The position numbers and the translations under genes are program-made. A stretch of DNA of 41,870 bases, taken from Amanita rubescens. Its lineage: Eukaryota > Basidiomycota > Agaricomycetes > Agaricales > Amanitaceae. Shown here piece by piece: positions 14,578 through 41,870 of the stretch. Every line of letters begins with the position of its first letter. The first letter of the stretch is position 1. The stretch covers positions 1-41,870 of the forward strand of contig WION01000460.1 in the NCBI GenBank assembly GCA_015039365.1, read 5' to 3'. The notes beneath the pieces were generated by a model that worked only from the letters and a program-made list of their open reading frames with translations, had not been told where the DNA came from and did no database searches.

Positions 14578-14877
14578 TTACCAGACACCGTTGACGACGG
14601 GAAGGTTACCCGCAGAGCCGACAGCTGGAAGGTTACCGACAGAGCCAACGGCGGGAAGGTTACCAACAGAGCCGACAGCTGGAAGGTTACCGACGGAGCC
14701 AACGGCGGGAAGGTTGCCGACAGAGCCGACGACGGGAAGGTTACCGGCATCGCCAAGACTCCCGGGGACACCGCCAATGTTACTGGTAAGGCCCCCGTTG
14801 CCTACAGAGTTGACAGGAGCGGCGGCGACAAAAATGGCAAAGGCGGCCACGGCAACAACAGCGAGTTTGGAGAACAT
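14578..14877 (-). CDS. Small secreted protein with 9-residue repeats
   Basis: The open frame of 99 codons encodes a signal peptide (MFSKLAVVAVAAFAIFVAAA, cleavage near the following PVNS) and then about six tandem units of consensus GNLPAVGSV, separated only by A/V and S/A changes. The units are 27-bp DNA repeats. It contains no cysteine, so it is not a hydrophobin despite the similar leader. The frame ends GVW-stop. A GTAAGT at the end could instead be a donor, but the nearest acceptor (TTCTCAG) gives TGA at once, so the product changes little. Function unknown; a wall-associated or effector-like role is only a guess. Confidence 0.65.
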   Translation of the reverse strand: MFSKLAVVAVAAFAIFVAAAPVNSVGNGGLTSNIGGVPGSLGDAGNLPVVGSVGNLPAVGSVGNLPAVGSVGNLPAVGSVGNLPAVGSAGNLPVVNGVW

Positions 14878-15829: not shown

Positions 15830-16790
15830 CGTGCGAGAGACCAAAGAGGCGTCGACGGACTTTTTTCGTCGAATGTCCATCTACGACAAAAAATGAAAAT
15901 GAGAATCAGGTCTAGTTCAAAAGAGGCAAAACGCACCTCGCTCATATGCCCGCGATCTTCTTCCTCAATACCAGGACTGTCTTCTTCCCCATTGAGAACA
16001 TGAAACCTGATCGCTCAACGTCTATCACTCGGCGAAAACGACAAATGGGGCAGATGATGTGTCCTCTCCTCCTCCTGCATCACCAACCCAAGACCAATCT
16101 TCTCCTTATTCTTGTATCTCGGGCCACCTGCAAGGGGTAAAGGGAAGTGTTAACTTTGCAACTGACTTCGAAGAGCGGTGCTACCCACTAGATATCCGTC
16201 TTATAGGAACTTCCCTGATTGCTTTTGTCAAGGGGTCAACGTACAACTCTTTGAAAGTCCTCTTGGCTTTCTCCTCGCCGTCAAGCCAAACCTGCTCTGT
16301 GCTCCCGCCTCTGACAGCTGATTTCCGAATTTCCGACGTAACACGTAACAAGTATATCAAGTATATCGTACTTTGTGAATACAACAATATGAGGCACTGT
16401 GTTTGTCGCTTGTTAGGGGAGCTTGGATGACAGATAATCGTGGAACTCACCACCGCGTCCACAGATTGAAGAATTCCTCCACTCCTCTTTCTGCGACGCG
16501 ATCGCCAGCGACGGGTACTGAGATACAAATCCTGAAAGTATGCTGTCTCGAGTTGGAACATAATGGTCGGGTGCCCAGTTACTCACTGGCAGATGGCATG
16601 AAGTTTGTCTTTGAGCTCCATCATTTGCTCGCGTCCTTCGATGAAACACTTCACTATGTCGAACTTGGCAACCTCGCCAGGCTCGAAGCCTTCCGAGTCG
16701 CGGGCAACGTGAGAGTTAAGGTGGTGATTAGCGTGGGAGGCAGGGTCAAGTACGCCAGGTGGGAATTCTCAACTCTTATCGTTATCCTTA
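15830..16790 (-). pseudogene. 5'-truncated P-loop GTPase relic (copy 1)
   Basis: The minus strand reads as the middle and end of a basidiomycete P-loop GTPase: the G3 region SEGFEPGE, then KFDIVKCFIEGREQ and ELKDKLHAI, an exon with ISVPVAGDRVAERGVEEF, a G4 motif FTKYD (about 16360), and a C-terminal part with EKAKRTFKEL and DPLTKAIREVPIRR. No Walker A (G1) exon is present: homology stops about 35 bp from the start of the divergent intact GTPase gene at 16824. The HAI-W position is changed and frames are not fully consistent. A second copy lies at 22390-23510. Confidence 0.6.
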
Positions 16791-16823: not shown

Positions 16824-19800
16824 ATGTCGCAGCTGCAACTTGCAAACGCTAATCTTGTAGGGACTCATGAGTCTCACAGATTTCTTCTCTAATACTCGAG
16901 CAGGCTATTGAGCGCTTTCGAATCTTGGTCATCGGTAACGCCAACGCCGGCAAGACAACCATTCTGAAGAAGGTGTGCCATGCCCAGGGTCGTGAACCGA
17001 TTTGTTTCAATAGAGATGGTGAACCGGTGTGTCACCTGCTTTTCTGAATGTCGCCAAGGCTTAGTATTCATTCGCCCTTGTTAGATTGCTGCAGAGTTGA
17101 AACCGGATGCCTCGGTGTGTTTCGGATGTATCTGTATCCCGGGCCTTCTTTTATGACAAATCAATGCAATTTCGCAGCGCGGAGAACATGATATAGAAGA
17201 CAGTTTTCAATATCCAACAGCTCACGGCTTCATTTTTCACGATTCCCGTGGGTTCGAGGCAGGTGCTACTGGCGAACTGGATAATGTTACAGATTTCATA
17301 AAGAAACGAGCTGAGAGAGAGGAATTGAAGGATCGGCTTCATGCAATTTGGTGCGCTAAGATCTGCAACATATTGTAATTTTCTGAATTTTCTCCTGCCG
17401 CTCAGGTATTGCATCCCGACTAGCAATGATAGACCGATGACGGAAGCGGGGAAGAAATTATTTGAGATTGACACCGGAAACGGTTGGCAAACGTCTGCAT
17501 CACCTACTAAACGCATTGCTTATTCTAATACAAGTTCCTGTCATTGCGATCTTCACGAAAATGGATGGTCTCGAAGACAGGGCGTTTAACCGGCTAGCAA
17601 TGGATGGTATTTTCGACGAAGAGAAGGCCACGGCCGAGGCAAAAGCTACATTCGAACGCAACTATCTGGAGCCACTTGAAGCGGTAAAGCACAAGCCGTG
17701 CCATACCATAAAACTACGCGGTATGTTGCTCACATCGACGGTAACAGCGACAAGCTCGACCATTCTCCACACAGACATGGACAAGGAAGGCACTATTTGC
17801 GACGAGCTGATCCTGAGGACATCACAGGCCCTCGACGGCGATGCTCTAAAGTTGTTCTGTCTCTCAATCCTTCGGAATGATATGGAATCTCGTATCAAAG
17901 ATGTTATCAACAAGTGGGCCATTGCCTCTTCCTCCCAGATAACCAGTAACTGATACGATACTACAGGATAATTATACCAAAGGCAAAAGGTGAGGAAAAC
18001 ATCGACTATGTCTTCGATCGGTAACTATCGTTCTCCCTTAGAGGCTCGTGAATCGGTCTCGTTTTCGAATGAACAAGCAAAATCGTTGTTCTGCGACGTG
18101 ATGTGTCGCTTTCCGCACATGCTGGTACGCATGCACACTCGTTATATTTAATTATTCACTCCCGTGCTTACAAATGTCAACAATCCCGCCACAGCCCGTA
18201 CGTAATAGTTATATCGCCTGCCCTTCCTCTGCTAATCATCCTTGGCAGAGTGTGAGCGTCCTTGCGTCAGTCGATGACATCTGGAAGCTATTAATCACCC
18301 AATTACCTTGCATCACTCTCAGTTTGTAAGTACCTCATTGCCCTGATTGTCATTGCTTGTCCTATTCGTCATGATACTCAAACGCAACATGAACTTCAGG
18401 AAGTAGGTCTTAGGCTACCGTGACGTTCCTGGGGGTAAGGTCATCACTGATACCCTCGTTCGCTCCTCCCCTCCATAGAAGGTATGTAACTGGTTATTTG
18501 GGAGGGAACTAGCTTGCTTTATCAACTTTTTTCATCTTCGCAGCTAGTGAGTTCTTCACTACGGTTGATACTCTGATGGTGCTTATGGAAATATTCCTTA
18601 TCGGTTGTCCACAGATTGTGAGTGCTGTGGATGTTCAATTTGGCTGTACATTGTTGATAATGTTGATGACAGCATGTGAGGTCTTGATCATTTTTTGAGT
18701 GGTGAATGTCTCATTCAATCTTATTGGATATAGAATGTGAGTCTCTCTGACAGTTGTGTGCTCTAGTTCTTGGCTATAGTGATTAATTAATAATTACTTG
18801 GTATCTATAGATGGCAAGTTATTCATGACACTAGTACTGCACTCACTGTGCCTGACCATATGATTCAACTAATCTTCAGGATGTGAGTATAGGCTACATC
18901 AATGACATAACCATCTGCACTCCCTAATGTTGTGCCCAACTTTTATTCAAACCATACAGGAAGTGGGTGTGCTTGTGTTGATACACTGGGGACATATAAT
19001 CTTACACTGCATCACCAGAATGTGAACTTTATTTGGACCTTTGATGGCATACATCATCTACTTACAATCATTCCTGGATTGGTGTATATCAGGCTGTGAG
19101 TTGGAATGTTCCTCAACCCAATCACAGTGGTGTACCAATGGCCTCATCATGGCATTGAACAGGTTGATGTAAGTTTTGGCTTGGTGCTCTCTCACTGAGT
19201 TACAAATGCTGTATTTGAAGGCTGTATGTACTATCCTACACCAACAATTTCAAACTTAACTAATAAATACTTTGTCTGATTTGCAGGCGGTATATGTCAT
19301 CTGCTCTTCATGACCACTTATTGATTGTTGCATTGGTCAATACTTGGCATTGCAGTGTGTAAGTTTGTTCCATCATCAGCATCACCAACTTCTGATATGT
19401 GGTGTAGGAGGTATGTGATTAGTTTGTCCTTTATTTTTGAATGACATTGGGGTGGATATCAGACTGTATATATAATTGTGGGTTTACTTTTACCAGCAAT
19501 TAGCAGATCATATTTGCATTTGCTTATAACTCACATATCTACTTTGCACCACTGGTGTGCTCTTCACAGGATGTGAATTTGCAATTTTTCTGTTGTGACC
19601 AGCCCCTCACAGCTTACCTCTGCTCTTCACAGCAAGTGAGTTTCTGACTTTTCTGTTGTGATCAGCCCCTCACAGCTCACCTCTGCTCTTCACAGCAAGT
19701 GAGTTGCTGACTTTTCTGTTGTGATCAGCCCCTCACAGCTCACCTCTGCTCTTCACAGTTTGTGAGTTTCTGACTTTTCTGTTGTGATCAGCCCCTCACA

Positions 19801-21907
19801 GCTCGCCTCTACTCTTCACAGATTGTGAGTTTCTGACTTTTCTGTTGTGATCAGCCCCTCATAGCTCACCTCTGCTCTTCACAGCGAGCGAGTTTCTGAC
19901 TTTTCTGTTGTGATCAGCCCCTCACAGCTCATCTCTGCTCTTCACAGGATGTAAGTTTCTGACTTTTCTGTTGTGATCAGCCCCTCACAGCTCACCTCTG
20001 CTCTTCACAGCAAGTGAGTTTCTGAATTTTATGTTGTGATCAGCCCCTCACAGCTCACCTCTGCTCTTCATAGAGAGTGAGTTTCTGACTTTTCTGTTGT
20101 GATCAGTTCCTCACAGCTCACCTCTGCTCTTCACAGCGAGTGAGTTTCTGACTTTTTTGTTGTGATCAGCCCCACAGCTCACCTCTACTCTTCAAAGGAT
20201 GTGAGTTTCTGACTTTTCTGTTGTGATCAGCCCCTCACAGTTCATCTCTACTCTTCACAGGATGTGAGTTTCTCACTTTCCTGTTGTCTCTCACGGCTCA
20301 CCTATGCTTTTCACAGATTGTGAGTTTCTGACTTTTCTGTTGTGATCAGCCCCTCACAACTCACCTCTGCTCTTCACAGTTTGTGAGTTTGTGACTTTCC
20401 TGTTGTGATCAGCCCCTCACAGCTCACCTCTGCTCTTCACAGTTTGTGAGTTTGTGACTTTTCTGTTGTGATCAGCTCACAGCTCACCTTTGCTCATCAC
20501 AGCTTGTGAGTTTCTGACTTTTCTGTTGTGATCAGTCCCTCACAGCTCACCTCTGCTCTTCACAGATTGTGAGTTTCTGACTTTTCTGTTGTGATCAGCA
20601 CCTCATGGCTCACCTATGATCTTCACAGATTGTGAGTTTCTCACTTTTCTGTTGTGATCAGCCCCTCATATCTCACCTCTGCTCTTCACAGCGAGTGAGT
20701 TGCTGGCTAAGTTTTCTGTTGTGATCAGCCCCTCACAGATCACCTCTGCTCTTCACAGCAAGTGAGTTTCTGAATTTTATGTTGTGATCAGCCCCTCACA
20801 GCTCACCTCTGCTCTTCATAGCGAGTGAGTTTCTGACTTTTCCGTTGTGATCAGTTCCTCACAGCTAACCTCTGCCCTTCACAGGATGTGAGTTTCTGAC
20901 TTTTATGTTGTGATCAGCCCCTCACAGCTCACCTCTGCTCTTCACAGCGAGTGAGTTTCTGACTTTTCTGTTGTGATCAGCCCCTCACAGCTCATCTCTG
21001 CTCTTAACAGGATGTGAGTTTCTGACTTTCCTGTTGTCCTCACAGCTTACCTCTGCTCTTCACAGGATGTGAGTTTCTGACTTTTCTGTTGTGATCAGCC
21101 CCTCACATTTCATCTCTGCTCTTCACAGGATGTGAGTTTCTGACTTTTCTGTTGTGATCAGTCCCTCATAGCTCACCTCTCCTCTTCATAGTATGTGAGT
21201 TTCTGACTTTTCTGTTGTGATCAGCCCTTCACAGCTCACCTCAGCAAGTGAGTTTCTCACTTTTCTGTTGTGATCAGCTCCTCACAGTTCACCTCTGCCC
21301 TTCAACACAGGATGTGAGTCACTGCACAAAATCAATATTTGATTGCTTTTTGATCTTTGCATCCTTCTTTTGAAATGCGTCCAGAATGTATGTGCCTATC
21401 TTATGTGTTACTTCCACTCTTTCATGCCATTTCATCTTCTACTCTCCAATATATGTCCAAACTGATTGCTTTGTGTGGTTTTATAGGACCATCAAAGTTT
21501 GGAGCAGTGCTCCGAGCTTATCTTGCCATTCATACCACTGCAGGTGTGGTACCTTTGTTACAATCTAGGCTAGTTGCCTTATCATCATTCAACTTCACTT
21601 AGGATTCTTATCAACTTCAAGCTATGTGGATTGGCCTCAGTATGTTTTAACATTCTCTGCCATCATTGATGTCTCACTGATCTAGCACTTCATAGTGGCT
21701 GCAGCTGTTGCAGATCTCTGCTTATTTGCCTCTCTCTCAATATCCCATGAGACCTTTCAGGAAACTTTTGACTTCTGTCTAAATGCAGCATCATATCTGA
21801 AACTCAAGTCTGCTGCAGAGCAACAGTCTTCTACTATCATTTATGCCAATGTAGTCCTGGACATCCTGAAGGAGAATAGGGACAATTACAAGTTGTCACT
21901 GCAGTGA
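16824..21907 (+). CDS. P-loop GTPase whose central segment is built from 50 one-codon micro-exons
   Basis: Predicted 62 exons, 1,326 nt, 441 aa. Ordinary exons are 16824-16856, 16904-17026, 17085-17114, 17178-17350, 17406-17482, 17535-17720, 17775-17913, 17967-17989 and 18042-18124. They give a G domain: Walker A GNANAGKT (residues 22-29), HDSRG (83-87, G3) and FTKMD (152-156, G4), followed by FCDVMCRFPHML. Then come 50 micro-exons (18195 to 21387; residues 290-340) and three ordinary exons (21487-21543, 21603-21639, 21696-21907) coding a helical C-terminus ending KLSLQ. Splice phases agree at every junction. The family (AIG1/septin-like GTPases of basidiomycetes) has no settled function. Alternative readings: the frame stops at 17953 if the GTGGGC donor at 17914 is ignored, or 18125-21486 is one unusually long phase-0 intron. 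The gene boundary and the G domain are secure; use of the micro-exons needs RNA. Confidence 0.7.
18125..21486 (+). other. Micro-exon block: 49 triplets and one hexamer between consensus splice sites
   Basis: First positions of the exons in the unique part: CCC 18195, AGT 18249, TTT 18323, GAA 18400, AAG 18479, CTA 18544, ATT 18615, CAT 18673, AAT 18734, ATG 18811, GAT 18880, GAA 18960, AAT 19019, GCT 19093, GTTGAT 19163, GCT 19221, GCG 19287, TGT 19356, GAG 19408, ACT 19463. In the satellite: GAT 19570, CAA 19633, CAA 19696, TTT 19759, ATT 19822, CGA 19885, GAT 19948, CAA 20011, AGA 20074, CGA 20137, GAT 20198, GAT 20261, ATT 20317, TTT 20380, TTT 20443, CTT 20503, ATT 20566, ATT 20629, CGA 20692, CAA 20759, CGA 20822, GAT 20885, CGA 20948, GAT 21011, GAT 21066, GAT 21129, TAT 21192, CAA 21245, GAT 21311. 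After it: AAT 21385. Introns are 49-104 nt; donors are GTRNGT-like, with GC donors after 18813 and 19887. No triplet is a stop. Confidence 0.65.
19573..21310 (+). repeat. 63-bp satellite in which each unit is one intron plus one codon
   Basis: About 28 tandem units run from GTGAGTTTCTGACTTTTCTG through TTGTGATCAGCCCCTCACAG and CTCACCTCTGCTCTTCACAG, and then three variable bases. The first ten are spaced exactly 63 bp. Later spacings include 61, 56, 60, 67, 55, 53 and 66. Donor and terminal acceptor are present in every unit, with small variants (GCGAGT at 19888, AAAG at 20197, CATAG in several, TCAG at 21244). CTCAC about 19 nt before the acceptor is a plausible branch region. Each unit is therefore a complete minimal spliceosomal intron. 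Confidence 0.9.
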
Positions 21908-22389: not shown

Positions 22390-23510
22390 AGACCAACACT
22401 TTTTTCGTCACTCATGTCCGTCTACGACAAGAAACGAAAATGAGAATCACGTCTAGCGTTCAAAAGAGGCAAAATGCACCTTGCTCATATGCCCGCGATC
22501 TTCTTCCTCGATACCAGGACTGTCTTCTTTCCCATTAAGAACATGAACCTGATCGCTCAACGCTCCATCACTTGGCGAAAGCGACAAATGGGGCGGACAA
22601 TGCGTCCTCTCCTCCTCCTGCACCACCAACTCAAGATCAACCCTCTCCTTATCCTTGTATCTCGGGCCACCTGTAAGGGTTAAAGGGAAGTGTAACTGAC
22701 TCCGAAGAGCGGTGCTACCCACTAGACACCCGTCTTATAGGAACTTCCCCGATTGCTTTTGTCAAGGGGTCAACATCAGGAAAAAGGGGAAAAAACTAAT
22801 TGCAACTAATTGGATCTGGGGAGCTGGAACACTAGTTATCTGATTGTCTGATCATCTGGCCAGTGCTGGAACACTAGCTGTCTAATTGTCTGATTGTCTA
22901 ACCAGGTCTAACCAGCACTGGCATACTAGTGGTCTAATTGTCTAATTGATTGACATTGTCTAATGCTGTCTGATGCCGTCTGACTGCCTGTTGTTAGACA
23001 ATGTCAGACAATTAGACAATTAGACAATCAGACAATTAGTGGTCCAGCATTGGCCAGATGATCAGACAATCAGACAACTAGTGCTCCAGCATCACAGATC
23101 CAATTAGTTACAATTAGTTTTTTCCCCTTTTTCCTGATGAATGCACAACTCTTTGAAAGTCCTCATGGCTTTCTCCTTGCCGTCAACCCAAACCTGCTCT
23201 GTGTCTGAGTATATCATACTTTGCGAATATAACAATATGCGTGTCGCTTGTTAGGGCAGCTTGGATGACAGTTAATCATGAAACTCACCACCGCGTCCAC
23301 GCACCAGATTGACGATTTCCTCCATTCCTCTTTCTGCGATGCGATCGCCAGCGACAGGTATTGAGATACAAATCCTGAAAGTATGTTGTCTCGAATTGGA
23401 ACATAATGGTCGGGTGCCCACTGAGCTACTCACCAGATGGCATGAAGTTCGCCCTTGAGCTCCATCATCATTTGCTCACATCCTTCGACCTCGCCAGGCT
23501 CGAGTCGGCA
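22390..23510 (-). pseudogene. 5'-truncated P-loop GTPase relic (copy 2), carrying a MITE
   Basis: This matches 15830-16690 in the same orientation: LEPGEVEG, GELHAIW, an exon with ISIPVAGDRIAERGMEE, EKAMRTFKEL interrupted by the 364-bp element at 22775-23138, then DPLTKAIGEVPIRR and an acidic tail. It lacks Walker A, the G4 exon and part of the G3 exon. Its 5' edge joins directly to metallophosphoesterase debris at about 23510. Confidence 0.6.
22775..23138. mobile_element. MITE with about 28-bp terminal inverted repeats
   Basis: The left end begins ATCAGGAAAAAGGGGAAAAA and continues CTAATTG; the right end is its reverse complement (23111-23138). The interior is a long imperfect palindrome full of GTCTAATTGTCTGATTGTCT-type subterminal repeats. 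The empty site is preserved in the duplicate at about 16237 (GTCAACGTACAACTC). There is no coding capacity, so it must be mobilised in trans. The target-site duplication is not clear. Confidence 0.8.
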
Positions 23511-40800: not shown

Positions 40801-41870
40801 CACTCGCATCCCTGTCTTTACGCATACCAAAGGCAGTAGTATTGATTTGCCATTGATGACGATATCAGCTAGGGGAATAATCTTCGCTGTTGCATTTTCA
40901 GGGGACAGCACGCGGATTGTGTCTGGGTCGTCTGACAAGTCTGTGCAGGTGTGGGATGCGTCAACAGGTGTGGAGTTGAATAAGCTGAAGGGCCACACCG
41001 GGTGGGTCAATTCGGTCGCGTTCTCGAGCGATGGGACGCGGATTGTGTCTGGCTCGGATGTCAACTCTGTGCGGGTGTGGGATGCGTCGACAGGTGTGGA
41101 GCTGAAGGAGCTGAAGGGCCACACTGGGTCAGTCATTCGGTCGCGTTTTCGAGCGATGGACGCGGATTGTGTCTGGCTCGGATGACAAGTCTGTGCGGGT
41201 GTGGGATGCGTCGACAGGTGTGGAGTGAAGGAGCTGAAGGGCCACACCGGGAGTCATTCGGTCGCACTTTCGAGCGATGGGGTATGGATTGTGTCTGGCT
41301 CGTCTGACAATTGTGCGGGTGTGGGATGCGTCAGGTGTGGAGTTGAAGGAGCTGAAGGTCCAGACTGGTGGTCAATTCTGTGCGTTTTCGAGTGATGGGA
41401 CGGATTGTGTCTGGCTTGTATGACAACTCTGTGGGGTGTGGGATGCGTCGACAGGTGTGGAGCTGAAGGAGTGAAGGGCCACACCGGGTCATTCTGTCGC
41501 GTTTTCGAGCGATGGGACGCGGATTGTGTCTGGCTCATCTGACAACTCTGTGCGGGTGTGGGATGCGTCGACAGGTGTGGAGCTGAAGGGCCACACTGAG
41601 TGGGTCAATTCGGTCGCGTTTTCGAGCGATGGGACGCGGATTGTGAGCTCGGATGACAAGTCTGCAAGTGTAGGATGTGTTGATGAGTACTTTCCTTGGA
41701 ATCTGACAAACACAAATTGGATTATTTCTTCTCAGGGGCAAAACTACCTCATGTGGGTGCCACAAGAAGTTGGATTGCTTTCACCTTTCAATATTCTCAT
41801 CATTTCTCGTTCTGGATTTGCCACTGTTGACTTTTGTCAGGCCATGATAGGTCTTGGTTGGGTTCACTGT
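37832..41870 (+). CDS. NACHT-WD40 STAND receptor, frameshifted, 3' end outside the window
   Basis: NLR-like STAND proteins of Agaricomycetes sense non-self or stress. The N-terminus (MADRREGTARTIFKTLL) is followed by helical exons, a NACHT domain with Walker A GQAGSGKTT (about 39180-39207), Walker B LVIIDALDEI (about 39505), LVTSRSD, a winged-helix region with WYHASFPDF, and near-identical WD40 units (consensus VAFSSDGTRIVSGSSD, VRVWDASTGVELKELKGHTG) from about 40885. A C-terminal block with NTNWIISSQGQNYLMWVP runs off the edge. Breaks: one C is missing in a C run at about 39482 between Walker A and B, one base is missing near 39990, and many small deletions occur in the WD40 units. One intron has a GC donor (GCAAGT, about 38953). 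The gene is either a pseudogene or affected by assembly indels. Confidence 0.7.
40885..41650 (+). repeat. Tandem 126-bp WD40 repeats with shrinking units
   Basis: The anchor GTGGGATGCG occurs at 40951, 41077, 41201, 41321, 41438 and 41558, with a degenerate copy near 41670. Spacings are 126, 124, 120, 117, 120 and about 112. Only the first interval has the full 42-codon length. The units are otherwise nearly identical, so several losses shift the frame. Confidence 0.8.

Follow-up and report, generated by a model that had tools for sequence, protein, structure and literature searches.

A GTPase-like gene in the window, the 41,870-nucleotide stretch analysed here (contig C397 of the 75.7-Mb genome of Amanita rubescens; Basidiomycota, Agaricales, Amanitaceae), very probably carries 49 one-codon exons and one two-codon exon that are joined in order into a continuous segment of 51 residues. 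The gene model, on the + strand at 16824-21907 (~5.1 kb), has 62 exons and encodes 441 residues. Nine ordinary exons (16824-18124) encode a G domain and a helical part, 289 residues ending in FPHML, and are followed by a chain of 50 micro-exons in phase, 49 of 3 nt and one of 6 nt (GTTGAT, 19163-19168), that runs from 18195-18197 to 21385-21387. Each micro-exon is preceded by an intron of 49-104 nt, and a closing intron of 99 nt leads to three ordinary C-terminal exons with the stop codon (21487-21543, 21603-21639 and 21696-21907), whose frame is continuous with that of the micro-exons. An earlier note on this DNA had described a 50-fold AG-codon-GT pattern with one exon of six bases, introns in this same range and an unbroken phase free of stops. 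These claims hold: AG and GT are separated by 3 nt at 49 of the 50 sites and by 6 nt at one, the micro-exons total 153 nt with no stop codon, and the joined exons read through all 441 residues. The accompanying statement that all donors fit GTRNGT or GCRAGT was too strong, as 44 of the 50 do so; the other six are GTGAGC, GTGAGG, GTGAAC, GTATAT (twice) and GTGAAT. Intron length is not divisible by 3 in 23 of the 50 introns, and retention would leave the frame open for only four.

The chain falls into two parts. Micro-exons 1-21 (18195-19572, + strand; 20 of 3 nt and the one of 6 nt) translate as PSFEKLIHNMDENAVDAACETD, and the first 21 introns show no similarity among themselves at E<=0.01 (blastn-short), in agreement with the note's description of the first 20 as mutually unrelated. 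Micro-exons 22-50 (19633-21387, + strand; 29 of 3 nt) translate as QQFIRDQRRDDIFFLIIRQRDRDDDYQDN. A 63-bp tandem array, whose unit is a 60-nt intron plus one codon, spans 19558-21304 on the same strand (Tandem Repeats Finder: period 63, 28.1 copies, 86% matches). Across 18001-21600, AG-NNN-donor sites number 46 on the + strand and 1 on the - strand, compared with a mean of 0.9 and a maximum of 5 in 500 dinucleotide shuffles; the check on shuffled and antisense DNA that the note had proposed thus came out in favour of the pattern. The longest chain of such sites is 29, compared with at most 2 in the shuffles, and the non-tandem part (18001-19560) holds 17, where the shuffle maximum is 3. Other exon lengths (1, 2 and 4-12 nt) give 0 or 1 site each on the + strand. 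On the - strand, 19, 20 and 21 sites occur at 2, 7 and 9 nt, but only 0, 1 and 0 of them, respectively, lie in the non-tandem part; they therefore originate from the repeat unit.

Proteins from other organisms appear to read through the block. P0002, a 449-residue frame on an 1800-nt contig from a JGI sample of another organism, aligns with the model over its full length (268 of 452 columns identical, 59%), the micro-exon block included, and its C-terminus aligns with the C-terminal exons. Because the window gene occupies ~5.1 kb, its introns could not fit in a genomic contig of 1800 nt. The first 21 micro-exon residues, PSFEKLIHNMDENAVDAACET in the window and PSFDKLINDMDKNAVNAMRES in P0002, are identical at 13 of 21 positions, and a second group of A. 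rubescens gene copies (described below) matches P0002 at 16 of 20; none of 200,000 permutations reached either group's value. With an open frame that matches P0002 from end to end, the note's proposal of a separate exon for each of residues 290-340 is supported for nearly every residue, the single two-codon exon being the exception. A second long case, P0066 (430 residues on a 1669-nt contig), belongs to another subfamily and carries DLDPRPPDRLHRPRRDPRPLRRDPLLCFL at the matching place. We infer that the contigs of P0002 and P0066 are transcripts. A search with the P0002 tail returned no relative besides P0002 itself, and a search with the P0066 tail returned four Mycena proteins; in one of them, P0121, the stretch that counts ~36 residues in P0066 is ~6 long.

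Less complete proteins point to the same junctions. Nine of the 11 'jgi' proteins examined, those nearest to the query, extend beyond FPH-L, and the next residue is proline, that of micro-exon 1, in 9/9; in annotated genome proteins that extend beyond FPH-L, proline is next in 0/9. P0011 and P0016 (Russula decolorans), P0012-P0014 (Amanita muscaria) and P0023 (Phlegmacium glaucopus) continue after FPH-L with VR, as a GTACGY donor would read, and end a few residues later, and one-codon exons were probably missed in these annotated models as well. P0017 ends in PSVSVLA, and the window intron after micro-exon 2 would translate as VSVLAS; its end looks as if one intron had been retained after two correct splices.

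The sites are also conserved between gene copies within A. rubescens. The last exon is encoded at ten genomic places, comprising a window group (C353, C397, C768, C773 and C582) and a second group (C133, C408 twice and C777 twice) whose gene bodies are ~83% identical to the window's. In L053, from the second group, the non-tandem part retains 20 of the 21 AG-codon-GT sites. The two copies are separated by 33 indel runs, all of them in introns and 20 not a multiple of 3. Changed columns amount to 2 of 84 in splice sites and 14 of 66 in micro-exons, with gaps in neither, and of 1381 intron columns 224 carry substitutions and 180 gaps. By these counts, gaps apart, micro-exon codons change about as fast as introns, and sites and phase are guarded more than residues. 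The gene bodies of L053, L054 and L056 show 100% identity, and these three copies may represent haplotypes or duplicated contigs.

The spacing recurs throughout the genome. Neighbouring exon pairs with strict edges number 2489 for 3-nt exons, and 6, 1, 0 and 9 for exons of 2, 4, 5 and 6 nt. Reversed-pattern controls give 0 at 3 nt and 5, 0, 0 and 8 at the other lengths, so that the 2-nt and 6-nt pairs are hardly above background. A looser 3-nt pattern finds 4853 pairs versus 2 reversed. Introns of a further sequence family (GTGAGTGACATTGCAC...) occur among the places listed for the strict 3-nt pattern, and grouping the strict 3-nt places among the matches listed (to contig C8) yields nine array clusters. 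Eight of these have a G domain upstream, four by the same-strand match listing and four of the other five in the ~3 kb compared. In a second subfamily of five loci (L059-L062 and L064), TGG TTT GAA stands near the start of the run in all, and the best chain of L059 has 76 one-codon exons. As read from the assembly, this is a conserved, genome-wide gene architecture in A. rubescens, and the note's view of the block as coding gains from both the sites retained in the diverged group and the genome-wide prevalence of exactly 3 nt. The codon alphabet is narrow: the best chains (window, L053, L055, L057, L059-L062 and L064) contain 304 three-nt exons, with A or T as third base in 275 and C as middle base in 23. 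These triplets include one stop (in L060, at a site that can also be read as an overlapping AAA) against ~16 expected for independent positions; we do not use this scarcity as evidence because AG-TRA-GT also creates a rival donor.

How the arrays vary was compared across units of exactly 63 bp (20 in the window, 32 in L053, 45 in L055 and 22 in L057). Intron cores differ at 7.9% of sites in the window, 0.6% in L053, 2.5% in L057 and 0.2% in L055, the last a near-perfect identity that falls under the assembly caution raised below, whereas codons differ at 65%, 62%, 63% and 57% of sites in the same order. Identical adjacent codons are in excess in L053 (9 versus 3.6 permuted, P 0.007) and L055 (11 versus 6.1, P 0.026), with no clear excess in the window (4 versus 2.5, P 0.23) or L057 (5 versus 3.0, P 0.16). 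L053 and L055 share 98.0% identity in the gene body and 99.5% in the sequence downstream of it (768 of 1081 bases aligned), but their array residues share no order by eye. Whole units thus appear to be duplicated and exchanged and introns homogenised, and selection, or a process that passes the codons over, would keep these apart. As assembled, gene copies that are otherwise near-identical have arrays of very different length and codon content, and much of the variation is therefore written in the DNA. Hypermutable codons were considered and found unsupported: in window-type copies (window and L049-L051, the partial L052 being left out), 3 of 153 micro-exon columns changed with 0 gaps, versus 32 of 3213 in introns with 14 gap columns. 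On C777, at ~144.9-151.6 kb between the L057 and L058 array stretches, an array intron of one copy from the second group holds a 6.6-kb insertion with repeated ends, by eye apparently a long terminal repeat retroelement.

Based upon these observations, we propose that the ordinary spliceosome would join the micro-exons successively between the G domain and the C-terminal part. Because each acceptor lies 3 nt from the next donor, simultaneous recognition of neighbouring introns is improbable, and removal would probably be stepwise. Each splice would then present NNN|GT as the next donor, a form of recursive splicing in which every step leaves a codon behind. Exchange of complete units, each an intron with its codon (63 bp in this gene), would let the array lengthen or shorten, and the length and sequence of the segment could therefore change without breaking the frame. 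Skipping any micro-exon would also preserve the frame, and one locus might in this way give the very large set of isoforms that the note suggested; the partial proteins of other organisms look like retained introns, not exon skips.

It is conceivable that no codon of the block reaches the mRNA, if 18125-21486 were a single long intron and the AG-codon-GT sites were ratchet points or decoys. Omission of all micro-exons is likewise in frame, giving 390 residues, and the public A. rubescens annotation (P0001 and P0005) does not contain them as a run. We nevertheless consider this very improbable, since the first 21 micro-exon residues occur in order in P0002, the residue of micro-exon 1 follows in every one of the nine single-frame relatives, and the genome-wide spacing is 3 nt rather than 0, 2, 4 or 5. 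Nor do we give any real credence to a decayed or non-coding tandem repeat that inherited its likeness to splice sites from one intron-like unit. Such a repeat would account for the tandem nature of the later part of the block and for the off-size exons of L055, as assembled, but not for a non-tandem part that shows the pattern with unrelated introns, for sites conserved across indels, for the 3 nt kept in other intron families and lengths, or for the alignment of P0002 through the block.

An invasion by introners, mobile introns inserted at every codon boundary of an old continuous exon, would bear on the origin only and leave one-codon splicing intact. It would explain why array introns are near-identical (distance 0.0017-0.079) while codons differ (0.57-0.65). 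However, phase 0 would have to be struck at each codon, the first 21 introns are mutually unrelated, and the 60-nt unit is found, among the matches listed (of 335), only on contigs with copies of the window gene. Moreover, the excess of adjacent identical codons in two of the four arrays is as expected of joint duplication of intron and codon. Thus, we regard this origin as unlikely.

Several observations weigh against the joined chain of one-codon exons. The gene model is drawn from A. rubescens genomic DNA rather than from its RNA, and in P0001 FPHML is joined straight to micro-exon 17 (19287), the protein ending inside the next intron. P0002 is known from its protein sequence alone, not from its nucleotides, organism or sample type, and its likeness to the tandem part is weak, with similar length and residue make-up and little identity. 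The spacing is the only ground for the stepwise order; single-frame proteins would in any event reveal just the first retained intron. One of the 21 sites is lost in the second group, and cluster C3:127k has no G domain in the ~3 kb compared. Finally, L055 (C408:18300-26200), as assembled, contains 2- and 4-nt exons that break the frame, and C749 carries five of the six genome-wide 2-nt exon pairs. The five 4-nt exons of L055 (GATT, GAAT, CTGA, GTTA and GATT) each hold at least two array triplets as subsequences, as do 34 of the 256 possible 4-mers. We rejected this frameshift as proof against coding: the 4-nt exons look like merged reads of different units, and assembly merging looks likely because the L055 introns are identical from unit to unit. 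The off-size exons of both L055 and C749 are probably products of such merging.

The upstream exons (16824-16856, 16904-17026, 17085-17114, 17178-17350, 17406-17482, 17535-17720, 17775-17913, 17967-17989 and 18042-18124, + strand) encode a protein that begins MSQLQLANANLAIERFRILVIGNANAGKTT, and its first 289 residues are identical to the public A. rubescens protein P0001 (289/289). The C-terminal third of the window protein is missing from that public model. The models from A. muscaria (P0012-P0014) and R. decolorans (P0011, P0016) end a few residues past the expected start of the first such intron, and the same gap is likely there. Pfam G-domain models match P0001 and P0002 with E from 7e-5 to 0.1, all below the curated cut-offs, and the motifs GNANAGKT and TKMD are present, which we take to be those of P-loop G-domain GTPases. 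Foldseek returned G-alpha subunits and immunity-related GTPases among the 50 matches listed (E 3e-5 to 7e-4, query-length TM 0.28-0.41); matches at this level are too weak to assign a function. A PDB sequence search gave no match below E 0.09. In the structure model of P0002 the tail is uninformative, with a predicted local distance difference test (pLDDT) score mostly under 50, and in that of P0066 the array-stretch residues 280-298 form a loop between helices with pLDDT below 50. Elsewhere in the window, 16001-16240 and 22541-22780, which flank the gene, are alike by eye and suggest a local duplication. A 27-bp tandem repeat of 5.7 copies lies at 14593-14746, and another, of ~117-237 bp, at 40910-41664; by eye, the translation of the latter resembles what we take to be WD40 repeats, possibly part of an NLR-type gene.

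The segment would be a fast-varying, probably disordered loop, possibly the specificity region of an expanded family; from the variability of the arrays, the size of the family and the fold matches, we would guess at a role in recognition. More broadly, we tentatively suggest, as a possibility we rate below even odds, a codon-cassette system in mushrooms, in which a ~60-nt intron plus one codon is the movable unit of a large GTPase-like gene family. Units would be duplicated and shuffled, introns homogenised and codons left free to differ, and the spliceosome would step codon by codon to yield a frame-proof hypervariable loop that recognises non-self or partners and to which splicing perhaps adds further variation. 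Splicing biology has long been bounded by how small an exon can be and by how much space the factors at two adjacent splice sites need; with thousands of neighbouring single-codon exons in a single genome, an ordered, stepwise course of splicing would become open to direct test. The arrangement also suggests a new route of protein evolution, in which a tandem DNA repeat encodes a non-repetitive protein and the codon is the unit of recombination, with no risk to the frame.

Fungal NLR repeat domains evolve in concert, with homogenised repeats and few variable codons in large families of nucleotide-binding proteins; those repeats are wholly protein, whereas ~95% of each 63-bp unit in the window array is intron. 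The arrays share with introners their near-identical introns (0.2-7.9% of core sites differ). Classical ratchet points (AG|GT) leave no exon, whereas one codon would stay at each step in the window gene. In recursive splicing as described in PMC6224609, acceptor and donor are adjacent and removal is stepwise. Single 3-nt micro-exons, such as that of Drosophila homothorax, establish that a one-codon exon can be spliced, and the sections of PMC7392893 drawn on here describe isolated cases of 1-9 bp; the window gene has a run of dozens. Schistosome MEG genes, according to parts of PMC10526429, have 10-20 exons, mostly of 15 bp (the text gives a range of 6-81 bp and the abstract 3-81), separated by introns of 0.1-5 kb; they encode secreted proteins, and isoforms arise by skipping of central exons. 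As in the window gene, small exons stand in series, most of them with a length divisible by three, and were overlooked by automatic annotation, but the fungal GTPase-like gene pairs its 50 exons of 3-6 nt with short rather than long introns. Aphid bicycle and megacycle genes resemble the window family in their many small exons and fast evolution; excerpts of PMC9168663 give >100 microexons for megacycle and an average of ~17 exons for bicycle, whose internal exons are nearly all phase 2. In contrast, the window micro-exons are all phase 0, as the 289-codon frame ends at 18124 and sizes are 3 or 6 nt. Among the papers listed from the open-licence PMC literature, preprints lying outside the search, we found no report of one-codon or 3-nt exon runs in fungi or Amanita; the Rhizoctonia paper PMC4014442 mentions microexons a single time, as an option in mapping reads. 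We found neither fungi nor tandem micro-exons in the passages available from the review PMC13149111. Because MEG genes, bicycle genes and ratchet splicing, by their descriptions, each differ in defining features, we rate the architecture as categorically new as a kind of gene; if the kind is taken as a gene with many microexons, it is an extreme variant.

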